Below are positions 35,570 to 45,529 of a stretch of 64,000 bases of DNA, in pieces. The stretch covers positions 7,137,501 through 7,201,500 of the forward strand of contig NC_135245.1 in NCBI RefSeq assembly GCF_947623445.1, written 5' to 3'. Origin of the DNA: Clavelina lepadiformis. Taxonomy: Eukaryota > Chordata > Ascidiacea > Aplousobranchia > Clavelinidae. Numbering within the stretch: the first letter of the stretch is position 1; each line of letters opens with the position of its first letter. The position numbers and the translations under genes were made by a program. The notes below the pieces were generated by a model that was not told the origin of the DNA, did no database searches, and saw nothing but the letters and a program-made list of their open reading frames with translations.

Positions 35570-38500
35570 ATGTGGCAAAATGAAAAGAACTTGGGTGCTG
35601 ATGTTAATCAAACTCACCATCAGTTAATTAAGCATATGAAGGATATGAGTTTTGATAATGCTAAAATAGAGGAAGCAATAGTTAACACAGGTAATAACGA
35701 TACAAAATTGAATCGATAATAACGCAATATAATGCAAGATTTTGCATGAAGGCATTAGTTAAATAGCCAGTCCCTAAGCGACTCCAAAAAACTTTAAAAA
35801 ACTTTCTTAAGTTTTTTTTACAGAATATACTTATATGAAATTTTATTTGGTAATATCTATTTTATTTTGGTTAATCTACTATTATATAAATCACTAGGGC
35901 ACCATTAAATGGTTTTCGAACTAATTCCGACTATTTGGTGTGGAATGATTTGTTCAATATCATGCTGTAGGCTACATAAAGTAATCAAAACTTAACTGTT
36001 TGTTTGATGAAGATGATTTGAAAAAAAAGATGTAAACAAACTTTATCTTAGAAAAGGCTATGTAGGCTTTGAATGTACCTAAGCCTCACTTTTTAGTATT
36101 TTACTTTATAGGCACTGGGTCAGAAGTGAATGATGATAATGTATCAACTCTGATAAACTACTTGATAGAAAGTTCATCTACTGCAGCACCTACACCATCA
36201 AGCAGTAGTAGTAAGTTATTATAACTTAATCTACAAATGAATTTTCATGCCCTTGGATATTAAGTGTTAGTGTCTGCTTAGTCTTTTCTAGAAATACACT
36301 TAATGTTAAAGTGAGTCATGCTTGGAACAAATTGTATAGGAAATTGGGAACATTTTGTGATGTGATTTGCGCAGAAAAAAGCTTGATGATCATGCTTAAC
36401 TTGGCAGTACAAATTTTACTGTTTTCAGCTAATATGTCGCATTTTGTCACGTCATTTGTGTTAGAGATAGGATTACCTTGTTTGCAGTTAAAACAACAAA
36501 ACTACTTGAAAAATCATACTAAGCAAACAAATTTATGGTACTTTTTTACTTTTAAAAATAAATAAGATCTTATATTATCATCCTTGGCATATGCCACACA
36601 CATTGGTTCATATTTAACTGTCGGTTTATTAGAGGATTATCAAAAGCCAGTTTCAAATCCACTAATAACTGCCTCTAGACTGTTTAATCTAAATCAGTTA
36701 ATATTTTCAATGAGCCAACATGAGGTGTGCAAATACTTTCGGTTGTTATGGAAAGAATGCAGAATTCTAATTTTAAAACAACTTTTTTGAGTTTTATATG
36801 GCCTATTGGTACACATATTTTCAAAACCAATTCATTAAATTTAATCAAAATCACTCATACTATCGCTACAAAGACTTGTGTAGAAAAATATAAATAAAGT
36901 TAACCTTCAGAATGCCAAACTATATCCTTTTTTTATTTTACTTTAATGTTTGGTTAACACGGTTCAGACAACATCTACAAAGACTTGGTATTTGGTATTC
37001 CTTTAGTGTTGGTTCAGTAGCCGAGTGGTTAGAGCACTAGTCTTGCAATAACGCAGTCCATGTTTAATACTCAATGGCGCTACCATTGCAATGCCATAGA
37101 CCAGGGTTTCCCAAACTGGGGCCCGTGATTACTGCACTGGGGGTCCAGACTAGCTGTAAAGTCTGACTTTGCCGAGTTTGCTCGTGATGAATTGTTCCGA
37201 GAATTGATAAATTGCGCAATAAACAGCAACCTCATCCATCGCATTGATGTTGTCAGTGTAGTTAATAAGCATGAAGTGTTATTTATTTTTGGGTTTATAT
37301 TATCTTTCTTTGTTGGTTAGGCAGAAAAATTGATATGACATAAGGTTTGGGGTCAAGAAAAAAAGATTTACAAATAGGGGTCCATGGCTGAAAAAGTTTG
37401 GGAAACCCTGCCCTAAACGAAAGCATTAACAACACTTGCTCCTGTTCAGTGGTTCTGATGAAAAGTACAAAATTCGGGCTACACAAGATGCGTTTACCAA
37501 TCGAAACTTGCGCAGTGGCTAGCTCGATGGTTGGGGCTCCAGCAATGAGGAATCATCGCTGAGTTTAGGTTATGCAAATACTTTTCTCTGTCTGAGGATA
37601 AAAAATTATGATAACAGGCCATACCATGCCGAGACCTTTCCAAGAAATATATCATAAAACATAAAACACCCAGATACTGTATATCTATTGTGATGCTATT
37701 AAAGAAAAATTGGTTTAGGTTTATGCCACAGCAGACCTTCTGTATATGGTGGAAGGCATAGGGCTGTACAAATTATCAAACCTGCAGAAAATTCCAATGG
37801 TTACACGCTTGATCAGGATGCCCTGGAAAGGGTATTTTCCCAGCCTCAGGTTGCCAATTGTCCTGTGTCAATCTGTTCGCTAGCTGGTGCAATGCGTGAA
37901 GGGAAGTCATTTTTGTTGAATCTCTTCCTCATGTACTTCCACTCTGGAAGGGTATGCGAATATGCCTTATACAATAATATTGTTTAGTTGACTTATGCGT
38001 CACGTAACTAAATGTATTTATGTAACCAAATGTATTAGGCAGAATGGCAAATAAATAAAGTTTGCAGTTTGTTTCTAATTTCATAATGTTTCAAGGAAAA
38101 TTCCATTAAATATTTGCTATTATTTTGTTTTGTTGACCTTTTACACGTGGTATTTCTGAGTAGTCTATTATGAGTACATTAATTAACAAAGTGTGATCTC
38201 ATACATATTTTAACTAACAATTGTTTACCGGATTAGTCTGAAGCTTGGTTAAATGACAAAAGAAAAACGTTGTTTGACGGATTTGGATGGAGAGGAGGCC
38301 ATAATCGATGTACTCAAGGAATATGGATTTGGGATGAACCATTTCCTGTCAACACAAAAGATGGTGATGTAAGTTATTTCATGAATTAAAAGACTGAACC
38401 TAATTTAAAGTTTTACTAATGTTAGCGAATTGAGTTAATTAATTAACAAAATGAATAAATCAAGCACTTAAATGAAGATAAACGATATTTCTGATTATTA

Positions 38501-41500
38501 GGTTGTCGTCTTTCTAATGGATACCCAAGGAGCCTTTGATCATGAGAGTTCAATAAAAGGCTGTTCCATCATATTTGCGTTGAGCACACTGATCAGTTCT
38601 GTGCAAATCTTTAACATCATGAGGCAGATACAAGAAAATCATTTGCAACATTTACAGGTAAAGTTAAGTCATAGCATGGACCTATGTGATGGAAGCACAT
38701 ACTGTAAAAGAGAATTTTATTCATTTCTAAGTGATTTTTTACAAGTAATCTTGTGTTAGGAATTTTAATTTTAGATGTGCGAAATATTGGCAACCAAAAG
38801 TTGATTTAAGTAGGTATCATAATTTACAATATGACATATATTTAGTGAGCAGCATTGTTTAGTTATAGAACTGTGCCTATAGCTTGTCTTCTAGACTTTT
38901 GGGTCTGTGTCATTTAATTATTAATACCATCATTAGTACTTCCAAAAATAAAAGATATTGAAGTGCAACCGTTTATTGACTCTGTAGCCGAGTGATTAGA
39001 GCAACCAGCTTGCAATAATGTGGCTCAATTTTTGATACCCAGTGACGTTATCATTGTAATTTGCATAATTGGGCATGGCATTAAATGATGCTTGCTCTTG
39101 TTCAGTAGTCCTGATGGACAGTCTCAAACTCAGGCAATACAATATAAAAAAACACAAATAAAAAACTGTGTATCATTATGTGTATTGAAACTTGCACAAC
39201 TGCTAGCTCCATAACCGGAGCTCAAGCAATGAAGAATCATTGCTGAGTTTAGTAAAGATTACGATACCCATCTAGGACTGGTGAATTTTATTTTTGTATA
39301 CAGTCGAATCCGCTTAATTCGGACACTTTGGTTCCGCTCACTTTTGGCCGAATTAAGCGGAGAAACGGCTTTGTCCGAATTAAGCGGAAAATCAATTGTT
39401 CGTTTCATGGTCATGCGTAAAGTCAAAAAATGCATTTAAAATACTGTACTGTTGCGTAATAAATGAATTGCAGCTGCGCTATACTGCAGTAACTGGCACT
39501 GATCGCATAAAACGTCTTCGTTTACTTTAGTGAGCAATTTCACTTTTTGTGCTAAACTTTTCTGTACAATTTTGTCCTACAAGATGGACGCAATTGTACC
39601 GAAGTAAAAGCGACTATGGAGCTGGCACGGCCTTATATCAGTTCATTGTCGATTGTTACTGCATGAATCGTCATTGTTTCACCATAATCACTCATAATGC
39701 AATTGAATCTTGTCTTAAAACGAACGAAGTACTGTTTATTGTATCATAACCTAACGATGGAATTGCCAACCTGTGTCCGAATTAAGCGGAGAATTGTCCG
39801 AATTAACAGGAGTTTTTTACGTTCAATTTTTACTTTTGTTCCGTTCCTGAGCATTTTGGCCGAATAAAGCGGTTGTCCGGGTTATCCGGTGTCCGAATTA
39901 AGCGGATTCGACTGTATATAACAAATGTATATTGTATCTAAATTTCACTGTGTGGGTGTATTTCTGCAGCTTTTTACAGAGTATGGTAAGGTTGCAAAGC
40001 AGCAAAACAGTTCTTCTCAAGGAAAGGCTTTTCAGGTAAAGCTTTTACTAATGAAATTTATGAAAGCACGTTGCCTGAGACACTTGCCACTTTACTATTG
40101 GTTACCGGTATGCTTTTGTTTAGTCTTTGATGTTCCTTGTGCGGGACTGGCATAACCCTGCATACAGAGGTCTTCAAGGTGGTTGCCATATCTTGAAGGA
40201 TGTTTTACGCATTAGAAATTCCCATCATGATCTTACAGCTGTCAGAGAAAACATACATGAATCATTTGAAGATGTAGGTTGCATGTTGTTACCAAAACCA
40301 GGAGATCGAGTTGAAATTAGAAATAAAAACGGCCCACTGGTCACAATTGGAGGTAAACACCATGGAACTACTTATACCTATGTGAAAAAAACAAAAGTAT
40401 TAATAAATGAAGCATATAGCGTAAGATGTTAATCATTGTGCTAATTTGGTTTGTGTATACCAAAATAGATAATAATTAATTTAATGTATACAATTATACA
40501 TGCTTTATACATGTGTGACGATAATACATGATAATACACATGCATTATCTTTTTTGTTAACAGACATGAAACCTGAATTTCTTGATGAAGTGAATGAGCT
40601 TGTGAAACATCTTTTCAAAACTGGTATTGTGTGTAAGCGAGTTAATGATTCATTGGTTACTGGTCTTGGTATGATCAATTTGATCATTGCATATTGCAAT
40701 GTATTTGAAAGTGGAGACATGCCAGATATTCAACCCATTATGGAGGTATCGTATCTTATTGTGATCATTTTTTGAAAAAAAGTGGTTCAATTTATATGAC
40801 ACTTCAGTAACTCAGTAGGAATTGTAACTAGTACTAACTCTTTCTTTTGATCTTCTAGTCGACAAGCTTGATTTTATTTATATTAAATAAAAGTTTAAAG
40901 ATTAAAGTTTGACAAATGACAAGATTTTTTTTTAATTTTTTTTTAAGGCTACAGCTAAAGCAGCTATTGTGGCTACCATTCAGAAGTGTAAAGATGAATA
41001 TATTACAGAAATGAAACAGGTAAACACCAAAGTTTTTTGCAGTACGAAAATTAACACGTTACATAAGTTATTTATTATCAAAACTGACACTTCAGATATT
41101 AACAAAATTCCCAAATCATAACAATTTATGATAAAGTGTGCAATAATAGTAAAATTTATAAATGTACCAGTAGTGTTTTGAATTGGATAATTTACTGGAA
41201 CCTTACTTTGTTATCCTTTTTAAGTTTAAATTTTGTTTATCATTTATATTAATTTTACTTTGGATTATAACATATTTTAACTTAAAGCGTGGCAAAATAT
41301 ATGTTAATTACAAACTACAACCAAACACTAAAAACCCTGACAAACCTTGTTTTTTGTTTGAACTGTGTTCTGAAGCATATGGAGGATGAAGGATTTGTGG
41401 AAGAAGATTTGTTGAGAAAAAGACATGATAGGATAAGAAAAGACACAATCTCACGATACAACAGCTGTCCGAAAATGGGTGGAAAAGGCTTGATTGACGA

Positions 41501-44500
41501 TTATCGGAGAAAACTTTCTCAGCTCATCGAACAAAACTATGATAATTGTGTAATGCTAAATGCATCATTAAAAGTATGTTGATAACTTTTGAAGTGCTTT
41601 AATGCATTGCCAGCATACAGTTTTTCAGTGGCAACCACTGTAGTTGTTAAAAGCTTTTCTAATCGTAGTTAACTATTTCAGACATCATCTGTTATACTAC
41701 CTGATATAATTAAAGGACATTTTTGTAGGAAAAGATGAAAAAAGAAATAAGAGATCAAGTGGACACTACAAAAACCATTTATGTTACTCACATGGGAGAG
41801 GTAGATTCTTAATTTTAATGCAATTACATAAATGTTATTTTGTAATTAAAAACTTTTTCATTACATTAACATGTTCTAGCTATGTGGATCGTCTTACCTT
41901 GATGAGAACACACTGAACCAACGACATTGTGAAATTTCCAAACAGATGGTGGAATTCTTTGTAGAAAATACAAATCATTACCCCCAGAATACGGTTGCAG
42001 AATATAAGACTGAACTCAAAAAGTTGATAAAACATGAGTTTAAAAGCATTTTATTGAAAAACAGATATAAAGAGGTGATGTATTTTTAGTAAACAATACA
42101 TTGGTGCATCTTCTAATAATGCAGGGATGGGGAACGTTTGGCTTGAAATTTTATCAGGCCCGTAAGTTGTGTCATCACGATTCTTAGTCCACTTAGCAAC
42201 ACCGCAATGCTATAAAAATCTTTGACATATAGAAATCTAGCCTTTTTATTAATTATTTACCATATCCCTTACCAAAGATAAGCATTTTCAGTCATCTCAC
42301 CAAATATTAGTTAATAACTGGTGCAGTAAACTCATGCATTAAGCCATTGTTTGTTGTAAATTGTGTTCATAAAGGTTTCACAGTTTGCCTAAGATATAAT
42401 ACAATTCAAACGGCACTACATAGCAAAAAGGTTCTCCATCACTGCAACAAAGCATAGTATGTAGCGGGAACACTCAGCAACATTTTTATTTTCGTATGGT
42501 GCATATATTGTTGATTTGAAATAAACAAAATCATTTATCAATAAGAATGACTCTATATTTTGTATTCTAAACGTACATCCAACAAATTAATCTGGTTTAA
42601 AGAAAGTTATTTATCAATATGACACATATATTTGTTCTATTGCCTACCAACGTTTTTATACTTGCACTAATGTGACATTTACCATTTTTTCTATTTGATA
42701 AAGTACTGTACATCAAATGTATTCCATTTTCAGATGGAATTTGTACAGAAAATAACATCTTCAGCCTTGGAAGCAGAAAACGTTTACACCACTATCATGG
42801 ATGAGGTTATTTACAAAACTGTTCAGTTTTTAAGTGAAAACTTTAAACGTTTACAATATACTCAACATTTAGTATATTTTCCAGTTGGATTGTTAATTAA
42901 TTTATTTGGAAAACATAAACTAAAATATTATAAAGTAAAATATTTCGAAAAAAGTAGACTTGATGATATTTAAATAAAATAAAGAGTTTTCTCAACTATT
43001 CTAGAAATGTGAAGGCAAACACTTGGATGAGACTGAATTTAAAGCTGCCCACAAGCATGCCTCCGAACAAGCCTTGACCAAATTGATTTCAAAAAGCTGT
43101 TGTGAAGATAAACCACTTCATGCTCAAAAAAAGTTAGAACTGGAAGTAAAGATAATGGCCTTGAGAGGAAAGTACACACAGTCAAATGACATGGTCAAGG
43201 TGACGCAAATGCTTTAAAAATTTTTTCAACCTTCAGTTTCTAATGTTCAACTTATTCGGTTATTGGACATGGAAGAATTATACAAAGATTTACAATTTTT
43301 CAAAATCAGCTTAAATCCCCATGCCAAAATATTCATTAAAATGTTTTATTAGTACATCCTGGCAACCTTGCCTTTGTTATGTAGAGATTGCAACAGTTGA
43401 AATTACTGGAAGTTATGGTGCAAATAAAAACACTTTACAATAGCTTGATGGATGAGGTTGGTTATTGTATTTGCAGTAAAGTATCAATTGTGAAGTTACA
43501 AATGTAAAATTACAATTGTGAAATATTATACTTTTCGTAGATACTGGTCATGAAGAATTATTTGACATGCTATTGAAAAAGACTTTTTTGCAAATTTTTA
43601 GGGCTGTGGCAGCCGCTATGTTGATGAATCAGAGATCAATCGTTTGCACGACGACAGCAAAAATCAAGCAGAGGCAGTCATTATGTCAATTGAACCTGAG
43701 CATGGAAAAGAATTTGCTGACAAATGCCGTCAAGAGTTAGATTGTTTTCTGGATGATGCTTTGCAGAAAATCTCTAGAAAAAATGATAATTTTAAGGTGT
43801 AACTTTCAGATTAGGCCACAAAAAGTGTGAAAATATTGCAACTGCAATGAAACTTTTGATTATTCTTTTATTCTGTACAGAGAGAGGGTTCTAAGAAACT
43901 TAAAGAGCAAGCTAATAAAGTTTTCGAAACTTTTGTTCATAGAACTGAAGAGGTTTGTAAAGCAATTTCCATTTAAATAGTTTCCAGAAATGTTAAAGAA
44001 TAAACTTAAACAAAACATGTCTTAACGTAGAAACCATAAAATAGGAATTTATATGAATCTATTACTTCAAAAGATTAATGAAAAAATTAAATAGCAATTA
44101 TTTGTATTTTTTTAAACAAAATTGCTACAATAATAATCTATAACAATTGTACTTTGGCATCAAATTTGTCGGTGGTTCTATTAATGTATTTAGATCTAAA
44201 TTGGTTATTGCAGATCTCAAATGAATATATTTCAAGCAAAGTGCTGGAAAATAAACTACGAAAATGGAAGATTGATGCAGTAAACCTGTATGAAAGTGGT
44301 CAGAATGAACCTGCTGACGAATTTCAGAAAGTACAAGATGAATTGCAAAAGAAACTGGAAGAGCAGTGCACCCTGGCTCTGAGTAATAACGAAAAAAATC
44401 AGGTGAATTATTAGCTAAAAGTCTCAGATTATGTATTATTTAGTATAACATGAATATTCCATGCCGGTTCTAGATTACTGTTAATTTGGACACCTGCAAA

Positions 44501-45529
44501 GACGTTTAAATAATTTTTGTTGATGTAATTAAAAATTTTAAAAATGTTGGATCAGAATAAGCATATACAATACATATCTTAATCCATTAAAAATTTTGAT
44601 ATTTTATTTTTGCAATGTATGATAGCAAGGTGAAAACAGTTTTATGTCGATATTAAAATAAAAACGAATGAAACATCTTTATAAAACTGTACACTTTAGG
44701 GTCGGGCAAAGGATGAGGGTAACTACACTCTACAAGTTGCAAAACTAGCCTATTTGACAGCTATGGAGCAGGTATGACGTTAATTTCTGCTAGATGCAAT
44801 TTTTGCTACAAATCACGGCTCACATAGTTTGGTACTATATTTAATACTACAGTAGTTGGTTTTCGTAAGCTTACTGGACTTTACCTGAACAGATTTCTTC
44901 TTGCTAGCATGCAATAAGTGGATTATAAAATTTGTTTCAGTGCTCAGTTTAACTTTTAGATTATTATATGCAACAATACTTGTTGTGAAACTGTGTCTTG
45001 TATTTAGCTATGTGACGGTAAATATATAGAAGAAGCAACACTACTTTCCTACCATCAACAGCAATCACATACGATACGCAATAACATTGCATGTCAGATC
45101 CAGAATGCAGAAATAAAAAATGATGTAATAACAAGATTTGATGAGGAAGTAATGGAATTGTTTCAAAAAAGCAAGGAAAAGAACAAAAAAAATGATTCAA
45201 CCTGGATGTGGAAAACAGCCAAGGCAGCTGGAACTTTTCTACTTAGTGCAGGAACAGCTATGTTGATCAACACAAATCATCCATATAAATGGGCTATTGC
45301 AGGACTAGGTGGACTGGATAGCATCTTAAGATTTTTCAATCCATCAGATAATAAGCAAGAAGTAGGCCAGAATGCCTTGAGGCCATTCCCAGTTCCACCC
45401 ACGGGTGTCAACCAGTCATCAAGCGTTGATCCTCCTTCCTATCAAGAGACCGTGAAAGATTCGGAAAGCACTCCTTCTCATGCGAATCAAGGTTCAAGGC
45501 CAAAGAGCAAATCTGCTTCGAAAAAATAA
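35570..45529 (+). CDS. UBA-like/atlastin-type GTPase with six stalk modules
   Basis: Dynamin-superfamily GTPase of the atlastin/GBP type. Twenty exons, 1047 residues, all joins in phase: 35570-35690, 36112-36210, 37719-37951, 38237-38368, 38502-38657, 39970-40035, 40124-40352, 40564-40745, 40948-41019, 41376-41573, 41729-41800, 41880-42074, 42734-42805, 43005-43199, 43385-43456, 43602-43796, 43881-43952, 44214-44402, 44700-44771, 45008-45529. Residues 15-62 look like a UBA domain ([18 protein letters not shown]). GTPase motifs follow: P-loop GAMREGKS (130-137) with the atlastin-type arginine at 133, switch I region near T177, DTQG (202-205), and LVRDW (274-278). Residues 407-496 match the atlastin three-helix bundle (ATAKAA.., KMGGKG..), and five more copies follow to about 930. 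The end has two short hydrophobic stretches (945-960, 968-984) and a PPSY motif (1016-1019) in a polar tail. Known family role: homotypic ER membrane fusion in atlastins. Whether this protein fuses membranes is unknown. The UBA call is less sure than the GTPase call. Confidence 0.9.
37011..37630 (+). repeat. tRNA-derived SINE, interrupted by a MITE
   Basis: The head GTAGCCGAGTGGTTAGAGCA is a tRNA-like A-box region. The body resumes after an inserted element (37102-37410) with CACTTGCTCCTGTTCAGTGG, GGCTAGCTCGATGGTTGGGG and AATCATCGCTGAGTTTA. It lies in intron 2 of the atlastin-like gene, in the gene's orientation. The same family occurs at 38981-39285, 10511-10732 (-) and 60455-60525 (-). Confidence 0.75.
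37102..37410. mobile_element. hAT-type MITE nested in a SINE
   Basis: Terminal inverted repeats CAGGGTTTCCCAAACT and AGTTTGGGAAACCCTG match over 16 bases. The flanks ccatagac and ccctaaac agree at 6 of 8 positions, fitting a decayed 8-base hAT target duplication. There is no transposase ORF. It interrupts the SINE, so it inserted later. Confidence 0.75.
38981..39285 (+). repeat. tRNA-derived SINE, full-length copy
   Basis: It starts with CTGTAGCCGAGTGATTAGAGCA (tRNA-like head) and continues with TGCTTGCTCTTGTTCAGTAG, then a GCTAGCTCCATAACCGGAGC-like block and AATCATTGCTGAGTTTAG. Located in intron 5 of the atlastin-like gene. Confidence 0.7.
39301..39914. mobile_element. Tc1/mariner-type (pogo/Tigger-like) MITE
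   Basis: A 614-base element with inverted ends CAGTCGAATCCGCTTAATTC and GAATTAAGCGGATTCGACTG, flanked by TA on both sides (39299-39300, 39915-39916). The motif CCGAATTAAGCGG is repeated several times just inside both ends. The central ORF of 66 codons is not transposase-like. It lies in intron 5 of the atlastin-like gene. Confidence 0.8.
40948..45175 (+). repeat. six tandem exon-pair modules in atlastin-like gene
   Basis: Every module is a 72-base exon (24 residues) followed by a 189-198-base exon, all phase 0. The short exons start at 40948, 41729, 42734, 43385, 43881 and 44700; the long partners start at 41376, 41880, 43005, 43602, 44214 and 45008 (the last runs on into the C-terminal tail). 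Short exons share an aromatic at position 18 and Glu or Gln at 24, usually with Met at 22 ([48 protein letters not shown]). Long exons mostly begin C-x-G/S-x-[YH]-x-[DE]-E ... H ([36 protein letters not shown]). Copy 5 has lost the Cys and His. Confidence 0.9.
42122..42444. mobile_element. decayed hAT-type MITE
   Basis: The ends CAGGGATGGGGAACG and (reverse complement of the right end) CAGTGATGGAGAACC are imperfect inverted repeats. The flanks taataatg and caacaaag agree at 5 of 8 positions. There is no coding potential. Located in intron 12 of the atlastin-like gene. Confidence 0.55.

Follow-up and report, generated by a model that had tools for sequence, protein, structure and literature searches.

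A stalk-extended atlastin-family GTPase with six tandem three-helix-bundle modules in the sea squirt Clavelina lepadiformis

The GTPase (G) domains of atlastins dimerise on GTP (PMC12312388), and so do those of the guanylate-binding proteins (GBPs), for which a review considers atlastins as possible stand-ins in invertebrates (PMC9005921). In Sey1p the helical bundle is significantly longer, and a comparative study suggested that it might, for example, space junctions of the endoplasmic reticulum (ER) (PMC9804665). BmAtlastin-n of the silkworm, a protein of 770 residues with a GTPase domain and a 'coiled-coil middle domain' and without transmembrane segments, is antiviral against BmNPV in cells and in transgenic silkworms (PMC4926086). 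What stalk length contributes to dynamin-like membrane GTPases is an open question. Here we describe an atlastin-family gene, LOC143463183, in a window of 64,000 nucleotides on contig C6 of the Clavelina lepadiformis genome, whose product carries six bundle modules behind its GTPase domain.

Six bundle modules in one predicted protein

The gene was rebuilt from the window sequence as 20 exons on the forward strand (35570-45529), with GT-AG boundaries at 19/19 introns and a single frame of 1044 residues. It corresponds to isoform X1 of RefSeq LOC143463183 (P0001, 1047 residues; found by protein search) and is identical to it save at the junction of exons 2 and 3: judging from the RefSeq protein, exon 2 ends at 36210 and exon 3 starts at 37719, as against 36214 and 37732 in our draft model. 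Residue numbers are those of P0001 unless marked draft; draft numbers are 3 lower after residue 74. An earlier note on this DNA had named transcripts that split the locus into separate genes as a refutation; the public annotation, which is annotation and not transcripts, gives one protein of 1047 residues.

The stalk (residues 407-937) consists of six modules of ~89 residues, each encoded by a 72-base exon and a 189-198-base exon. All 12 stalk exons are in phase 0. The short exons measure 72 bases in 6/6 cases and the long ones 189-198 bases in 5/6, the sixth long exon (45008-45529) also holding the tail; the exon pattern that the earlier note had read for the five additional modules was recovered on rebuilding. 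Module 1 (window 40948..41573; exons 40948-41019, 72 bases, and 41376-41573, 198 bases) is called from its phmmer alignment to the atlastin-3 bundle and from an 18-module profile. Exons, alignments, this profile and AlphaFold2 together define module 2 (41729..42074; exons 41729-41800, 72 bases, and 41880-42074, 195 bases), module 3 (42734..43199; exons 42734-42805, 72 bases, and 43005-43199, 195 bases), module 4 (43385..43796; exons 43385-43456, 72 bases, and 43602-43796, 195 bases) and module 6 (44700..45202, end approximate; exon 44700-44771, 72 bases, and the first part of exon 45008-45529). Module 5 (43881..44402; exons 43881-43952, 72 bases, and 44214-44402, 189 bases) is the most diverged in sequence and has the same predicted fold. 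All six lie on the forward strand.

The modules have strongly diverged from each other in sequence. Global alignment of module pairs gave z >= 3.2 in 10/15, with a score reached by 0 or 1 of 300 shuffles each; the five weak pairs (z <= 1.7) are modules 1 and 3 and four of the five pairs with module 5. The module profile was built from 18 modules, six from each of three Clavelina paralogs (P0001-P0003), and scored the P0001 modules, which it includes by construction, at 63-88 bits, whereas the top score among 1060 shuffled sequences was 5.7 bits. Applied to the 53 proteins of our protein search (7995 candidates scored, proteins shorter than ~574 residues excluded), it found six matches in each of P0001-P0003 and exactly one in 25/25 rows classed as ordinary atlastins, in keeping with the single bundle that the earlier note ascribed to normal atlastins. 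We further compared profiles of each module type (three paralog sequences each) with a five-sequence profile of the ordinary atlastin bundle by hhalign, and this comparison of hidden Markov models bore out the proposed kinship: all six types match the ordinary bundle at 77-98%, and types 1, 2, 3, 4 and 6 reach 80% among themselves in at least one direction in 9/10 pairs, with module 5 comparing poorly with its sisters. In the search of solved structures, modules 2-6 gave no match, the stalk profile matching atlastin in module 1 alone (11/11 rows within profile positions 1-88).

The GTPase domain of the GBP/atlastin type is encoded on the forward strand by exons 3-8 (37719..40745; 37719-37951, 38237-38368, 38502-38657, 39970-40035, 40124-40352 and 40564-40745). 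It covers draft residues 99-365 (PF02263, E 2.2e-54, the sole Pfam family above cut-off), and its active-site motifs are intact, including a P-loop with arginine, DTQG and RD. Draft residues 86-491, bundle included, align with human atlastin-3 in a single phmmer match (E 1.9e-79), whereas the match with GBP5 is far weaker (draft residues 129-440, E 6.5e-16). Among 27 PDB sequences matched at E up to 0.001, atlastins take the top 13 places and no Sey1p chain appears. Module 1 (residues 407-496), aligned with atlastin-3 in this way and predicted to fold as a three-helix bundle, is the ordinary atlastin middle domain, as had been proposed. Taken together, P0001 is shown at the sequence level to combine an atlastin-type G domain with six copies of the atlastin three-helix bundle, and tandem duplication of one exon pair would best explain the array.

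The AlphaFold2 model of P0001 has six bundles, modules 2-6 being given the same bundle fold and not an unrelated one, which the earlier note had named as a refutation. Helix 3 of one module runs into helix 1 of the next in shared helices of 54-56 residues at 4/5 joints, and at these same joints an intron cuts the shared helix after 30 residues; the fifth joint, between modules 3 and 4, is broken in the model. The array is predicted to form a spectrin-like rod, which we estimate at ~25 nm as against ~4-5 nm for a single bundle, taking ~4.2 nm per bundle from a shared helix of 56 residues x 1.5 Å that covers two half-bundles. The lever arm of about six-fold length that had been suggested would follow from this predicted geometry.

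Relatives in the same genome and in other animals

A genome search with P0001 placed family members in at least about 22 places, grouped by eye among the 52 matches listed, which are a lower bound; several are in tandem. Two of them are six-module paralogs ~0.6 Mb away on C6, P0002 (7764-7772 kb) and P0003 (7803-7811 kb); the stalk of either one is encoded by six short and six long exons. The six modules are kept in the same order in the three paralogs, whose stalks are just 27-56% identical. Between P0002 and P0003, the ratio of nonsynonymous to synonymous substitutions (dN/dS) as counted by the simple Nei-Gojobori method is 0.24 over the 528 codons of the stalk and 0.13-0.37 in the single modules, ratios that are rough since synonymous distances exceed 1 in several comparisons and are mostly saturated against P0001. 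These values suggest that the stalks of P0002 and P0003 are constrained. One G-domain exon of this pair (residues 196-247; C6:7771246-7771404 and 7810539-7810697) has a dS of 0.07 versus 0.51 across the portion of the domain that was compared, and because of this low value gene conversion is probable there.

An ordinary single-bundle atlastin is also present, on the minus strand of C7 (12756388-12757584), with a G domain and one module in one open frame of 564 residues; the frame is uninterrupted, as if the gene were intronless or a retrocopy. Further G-domain matches of atlastin/GBP type, several in tandem, lie at C3:17.897-17.936 Mb, C4:22.12-22.19 Mb, C2:0.418-0.454 Mb, C2:1.437 Mb and C3:2.69-2.73 Mb, and five genes at C3:17.9 Mb have G exons together with weak module exons.

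A far longer relative is a GTPase gene on the minus strand of C4 (6052222-6063255) that was read as having 14 consecutive modules, with stalk exons at 6060798-6052222 and G-domain exons above them. Its modules were read in 27 stalk exons, all multiples of three and without an inner stop, the exon ends having been chosen by eye, a choice that partly determines the frame and the length. Of the 13 separate short exons 12 measure 72 bases and one 69; modules 7 and 8 have no intron between them, and one donor is GC. By best profile score, module 1 is of type 1 (56 bits) and module 14 of type 6 (65 bits). Modules 10 and 12 are of type 4 (49 and 36 bits), modules 5, 6, 9 and 11 of type 3 (38, 36, 27 and 43 bits), and module 13 is narrowly of type 5 (19.9 versus 18.5 for type 4). 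The assignment of modules 3, 4 and 8 is ambiguous, and modules 2 and 7, with best scores of merely 6.5 and 7.2 bits, were called from the exon pattern. A module tree (69 rows, 90 columns, many poor forks) agrees with these types for modules 1, 6 and 10-14, joins module 5 to type 5 and leaves 7, 8 and 9 unplaced. On the simplest reading, modules were gained (or lost) in the middle of this array and its two ends were retained.

Long-stalk relatives also occur in other animals. No tunicate besides Clavelina is named among the 53 proteins of our search (7995 candidates, proteins below ~574 residues excluded, some rows without organism), which include 14 rows of a plankton clade, one of them with a transcriptome accession, and 7 rows of a moth clade, one of them (P0049) placed by tree. 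Three module matches above the shuffle maximum were found in 12/14 plankton rows, and three or more module matches in 4/7 moth rows. For the moth protein P0034 (Spodoptera litura, 768 residues), the AlphaFold2 model was read as five bundles with joining helices of 43-46 residues, at a confidence (pLDDT) of 84.7 and a predicted template modelling score (pTM) of 0.56 from a 19-row alignment. BmAtlastin-n probably belongs to the same moth group, as judged by length, order and lineage.

In cross-lineage hhalign comparisons of sea squirt, moth and plankton modules, 8/63 pairs reach 80% in at least one direction, the strongest being type 1 with plankton 1 (95%), moth 3 with plankton 1 (94%) and type 2 with plankton 3 (91%), and the majority of modules in any one lineage are closer to the ordinary bundle than to modules of the other lineages. 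In the module tree the moth modules group as 1/3/5 and 2/4, the plankton modules come together (88/70) and the sea-squirt modules do not form one clade; the G-domain tree has long branches and no suitable outgroup. Because few cross-lineage pairs reach 80% and most modules are closer to the ordinary bundle, it is likely, although not proven, that the three arrays are separate expansions.

Termini and possible function

Three helices are predicted with confidence in the first 63 residues, a region that looks UBA-like by eye, as does the N-terminus of P0002. On the forward strand, exon 1 (35570..35690) provides the start codon and the first half of this domain (predicted helices 13-25 and 30-40), and exon 2 (36112..36210, end per the RefSeq protein) its end (predicted helix 48-63) and a Ser/Thr-rich linker. 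The UBA-like identity is only suggestive. Another long Clavelina relative, P0004 (984 residues), differs from this N-terminus in its residues 1-143, which have no Pfam match above cut-off.

The C-terminal tail (45203..45529, forward strand) includes a Gly/Ala-rich hydrophobic stretch (944-962), a second one by eye (~968-985), a PPxY motif and the stop codon. Stretch 968-985 has a moment of 0.45 and is a candidate amphipathic helix at pLDDT <50. The tail of P0002 has a more convincing pair of stretches, with hydropathies of 1.41 and 1.44. P0001 ends in KSASKK and has no CaaX box, as that motif is generally defined. The PPxY motif, DPPSYQET (window 45428-45451, residues 1015-1022), is a possible WW-domain ligand.

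Within the introns of the gene, the fifth holds an element resembling a miniature inverted-repeat transposable element (39291-39924) with 36-base terminal inverted repeats that are 94% complementary, and two similar stretches at ~37010-37070 and ~38980-39040 look by eye like the head of a tRNA-derived short interspersed element; ARAGORN called no tRNA genes in the window. On the neighbouring forward strand, window 21923-22312 matches a PH domain (Pfam E 3.2e-8), and open reading frames at 15.8-24.5 kb may share a gene with it.

On balance we lean, with modest confidence, towards P0001 being a stalk-extended atlastin-family GTPase that acts as a long-reach, GTP-driven tether or scaffold, perhaps in GBP-like defence. 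GTP-driven dimerisation of the G domains would link two rods, either from two membranes or within one coat, and by our estimate the dimer could bridge ~25 nm per arm. The UBA-like N-terminus would direct the GTP-driven head towards targets marked by ubiquitin; at the far end of the rod, the weakly hydrophobic C-terminus would provide attachment to a membrane. P0001 would then not be the everyday fusogen of the ER, a role that the ordinary atlastin on C7 could fill. Three points make us prefer a tether or coat to a fusogen: the weakness of the anchor, the presence of an ordinary atlastin and the multiplication of the family. Defence use like that of the GBPs would be the likeliest biology, because the family has multiplied, partly in tandem, and because antiviral activity is described for a moth atlastin similar in length and order.

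Several results weigh against this account, beginning with the defence role itself, which is assigned by analogy. Within the stalk, module 5 matches the ordinary bundle at 77-85% and any sister module at 61% at most, with 0/5 pairs reaching 80%. The joint between modules 3 and 4 is of low confidence (residues 671-679), the model has a pTM of 0.51, and modules 2-6 are backed by a shallow alignment; the joint and the pTM leave the overall shape of the rod not established. At the N-terminus of P0001, Pfam ranks UBA_DHX29 (E 0.2, below the curated cut-off) behind two unrelated families (0.15 and 0.17), and the PDB gives UBAP1 at E 0.75, below threshold; for P0002, UBA_7 (E 0.084) is the sole Pfam match and likewise falls below the curated cut-off. 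The membrane anchor that the earlier note had assumed did not hold up well. Residues 940-1047 are modelled at pLDDT <50, and the best 19-residue hydropathy of the tail is 0.97 (944-962), as against 1.88-2.56 in the ordinary atlastins P0005, P0009 and P0023; the case for an anchor in P0001 is weak. The tail is also the least constrained part between P0002 and P0003 (dN/dS 0.68 over 50 codons), and the roughness of the substitution ratios given above applies here as well.

A less probable alternative is that P0001 is a soluble GBP-like defence GTPase, whose stalk self-assembles on microbes or vacuoles and which has no true membrane anchor. The weak C-terminal hydrophobicity, the spread of the family over at least about 22 places with several in tandem, the antiviral activity of BmAtlastin-n, which lacks transmembrane segments (PMC4926086), and the source label of P0003, 'guanylate-binding protein 7-like', are all in accordance with it. 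However, the sequence is that of an atlastin (E 1.9e-79 with atlastin-3 versus 6.5e-16 with GBP5), and the hydrophobic pair in P0002 is the more convincing one. A main rival, though one that we regard as unlikely, takes P0001 for a long-stalked ER fusogen working like yeast Sey1p (PMC9804665): on dimerisation of the G domains the bundles would swing and draw two ER membranes together, the extra bundles spacing ER junctions. The Sey1p structures 5ca8 and 5ca9 do align over model residues 87-760, but with a large root-mean-square deviation, which indicates that the stalks follow different courses; in addition, P0001 has neither a clear transmembrane hairpin nor a confident amphipathic tail helix, and the genome already holds the ordinary single-bundle atlastin with its 564-residue open frame.

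It is more doubtful still that the extra modules are an evolutionary by-product, the number of exon pairs drifting without functional change. The presence of 1, 6 and 14 modules within one genome and the strong divergence of the modules would fit such drift, but the number and order of the six modules are shared by all three paralogs, although their stalks are 27-56% identical, dN/dS is 0.13-0.37 per module between P0002 and P0003, and the first and last modules of the 14-module gene still best match types 1 and 6 (56 and 65 bits). That the annotation fuses two genes, or that the modules are alternative exons never used together, is very improbable: phase-0 stalk introns would permit in-frame skipping and the record name, isoform X1, indicates that other isoforms are annotated, but X1 includes all six modules, and the helices shared over exon joints would be cut if the modules stood alone.

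Wider meaning and comparison with known systems

What is new here is that the modular stalks of the atlastin family extend to six modules and, in a relative, to 14. The two six-module paralogs, the 14-module relative and the possible UBA domain had escaped the earlier note. Its statement that no protein of this arrangement had been described stands in part. No description of a tandem-bundle atlastin was found among the titles and passages surveyed on atlastins, three-helix bundles, tunicates and Lepidoptera; a stalk longer than one bundle, however, is not unique, given Sey1p (PMC9804665) and the five predicted bundles of the moth protein P0034. In this family, reach seems to be adjustable module by module. 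If the reading of the 14-bundle gene is true, it would encode a GTPase whose rod measures nearly 60 nm, and stalks of 1, 6 and 14 modules in one genome, built from one phase-0 repeat unit, would be a natural length series for reach, tethering and fusion.

More tentatively, stalk length may be a modular trait that was expanded repeatedly from the same ancestral bundle, to 6 and 14 modules in the sea squirt, five in moths and three in plankton, giving long-reach rod GTPases that took over cell-autonomous defence of the GBP kind where animals lack clear GBPs. This bears on whether atlastins took defence roles in invertebrates without GBPs, a question raised in a review (PMC9005921).

Compared with known systems, P0001 shares with the atlastins (ATL1/2/3 and Drosophila atlastin) the GTPase domain with its P-loop, DTQG and RD motifs, and its module 1 is their single middle-domain bundle; unlike them, it has six bundles and not one, a UBA-like N-terminus and no clear transmembrane hairpin. 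The moth protein P0034, and probably BmAtlastin-n, likewise joins an atlastin-type G domain to a long helical stalk, but P0034 has five predicted bundles, and its modules were probably derived separately. Like Sey1p/RHD3, P0001 has a stalk longer than one bundle, although it is not closest to Sey1p by sequence, and we know of no exon-pair repeat in Sey1p/RHD3. In contrast to GBP1, GBP2 and GBP5, P0001 is far closer to atlastin in sequence, has six bundles and lacks a CaaX box. In GBPs a GED (helices 12-13) follows a middle domain of two bundles; full-length GBP1 (1f5n) aligns over model residues 87-586 only, by VIA. In form, the array resembles spectrin-type repeats, which are tandem three-helix bundles joined by continuous helices. 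We claim no homology with these; the modules of P0001 resemble the atlastin bundle.

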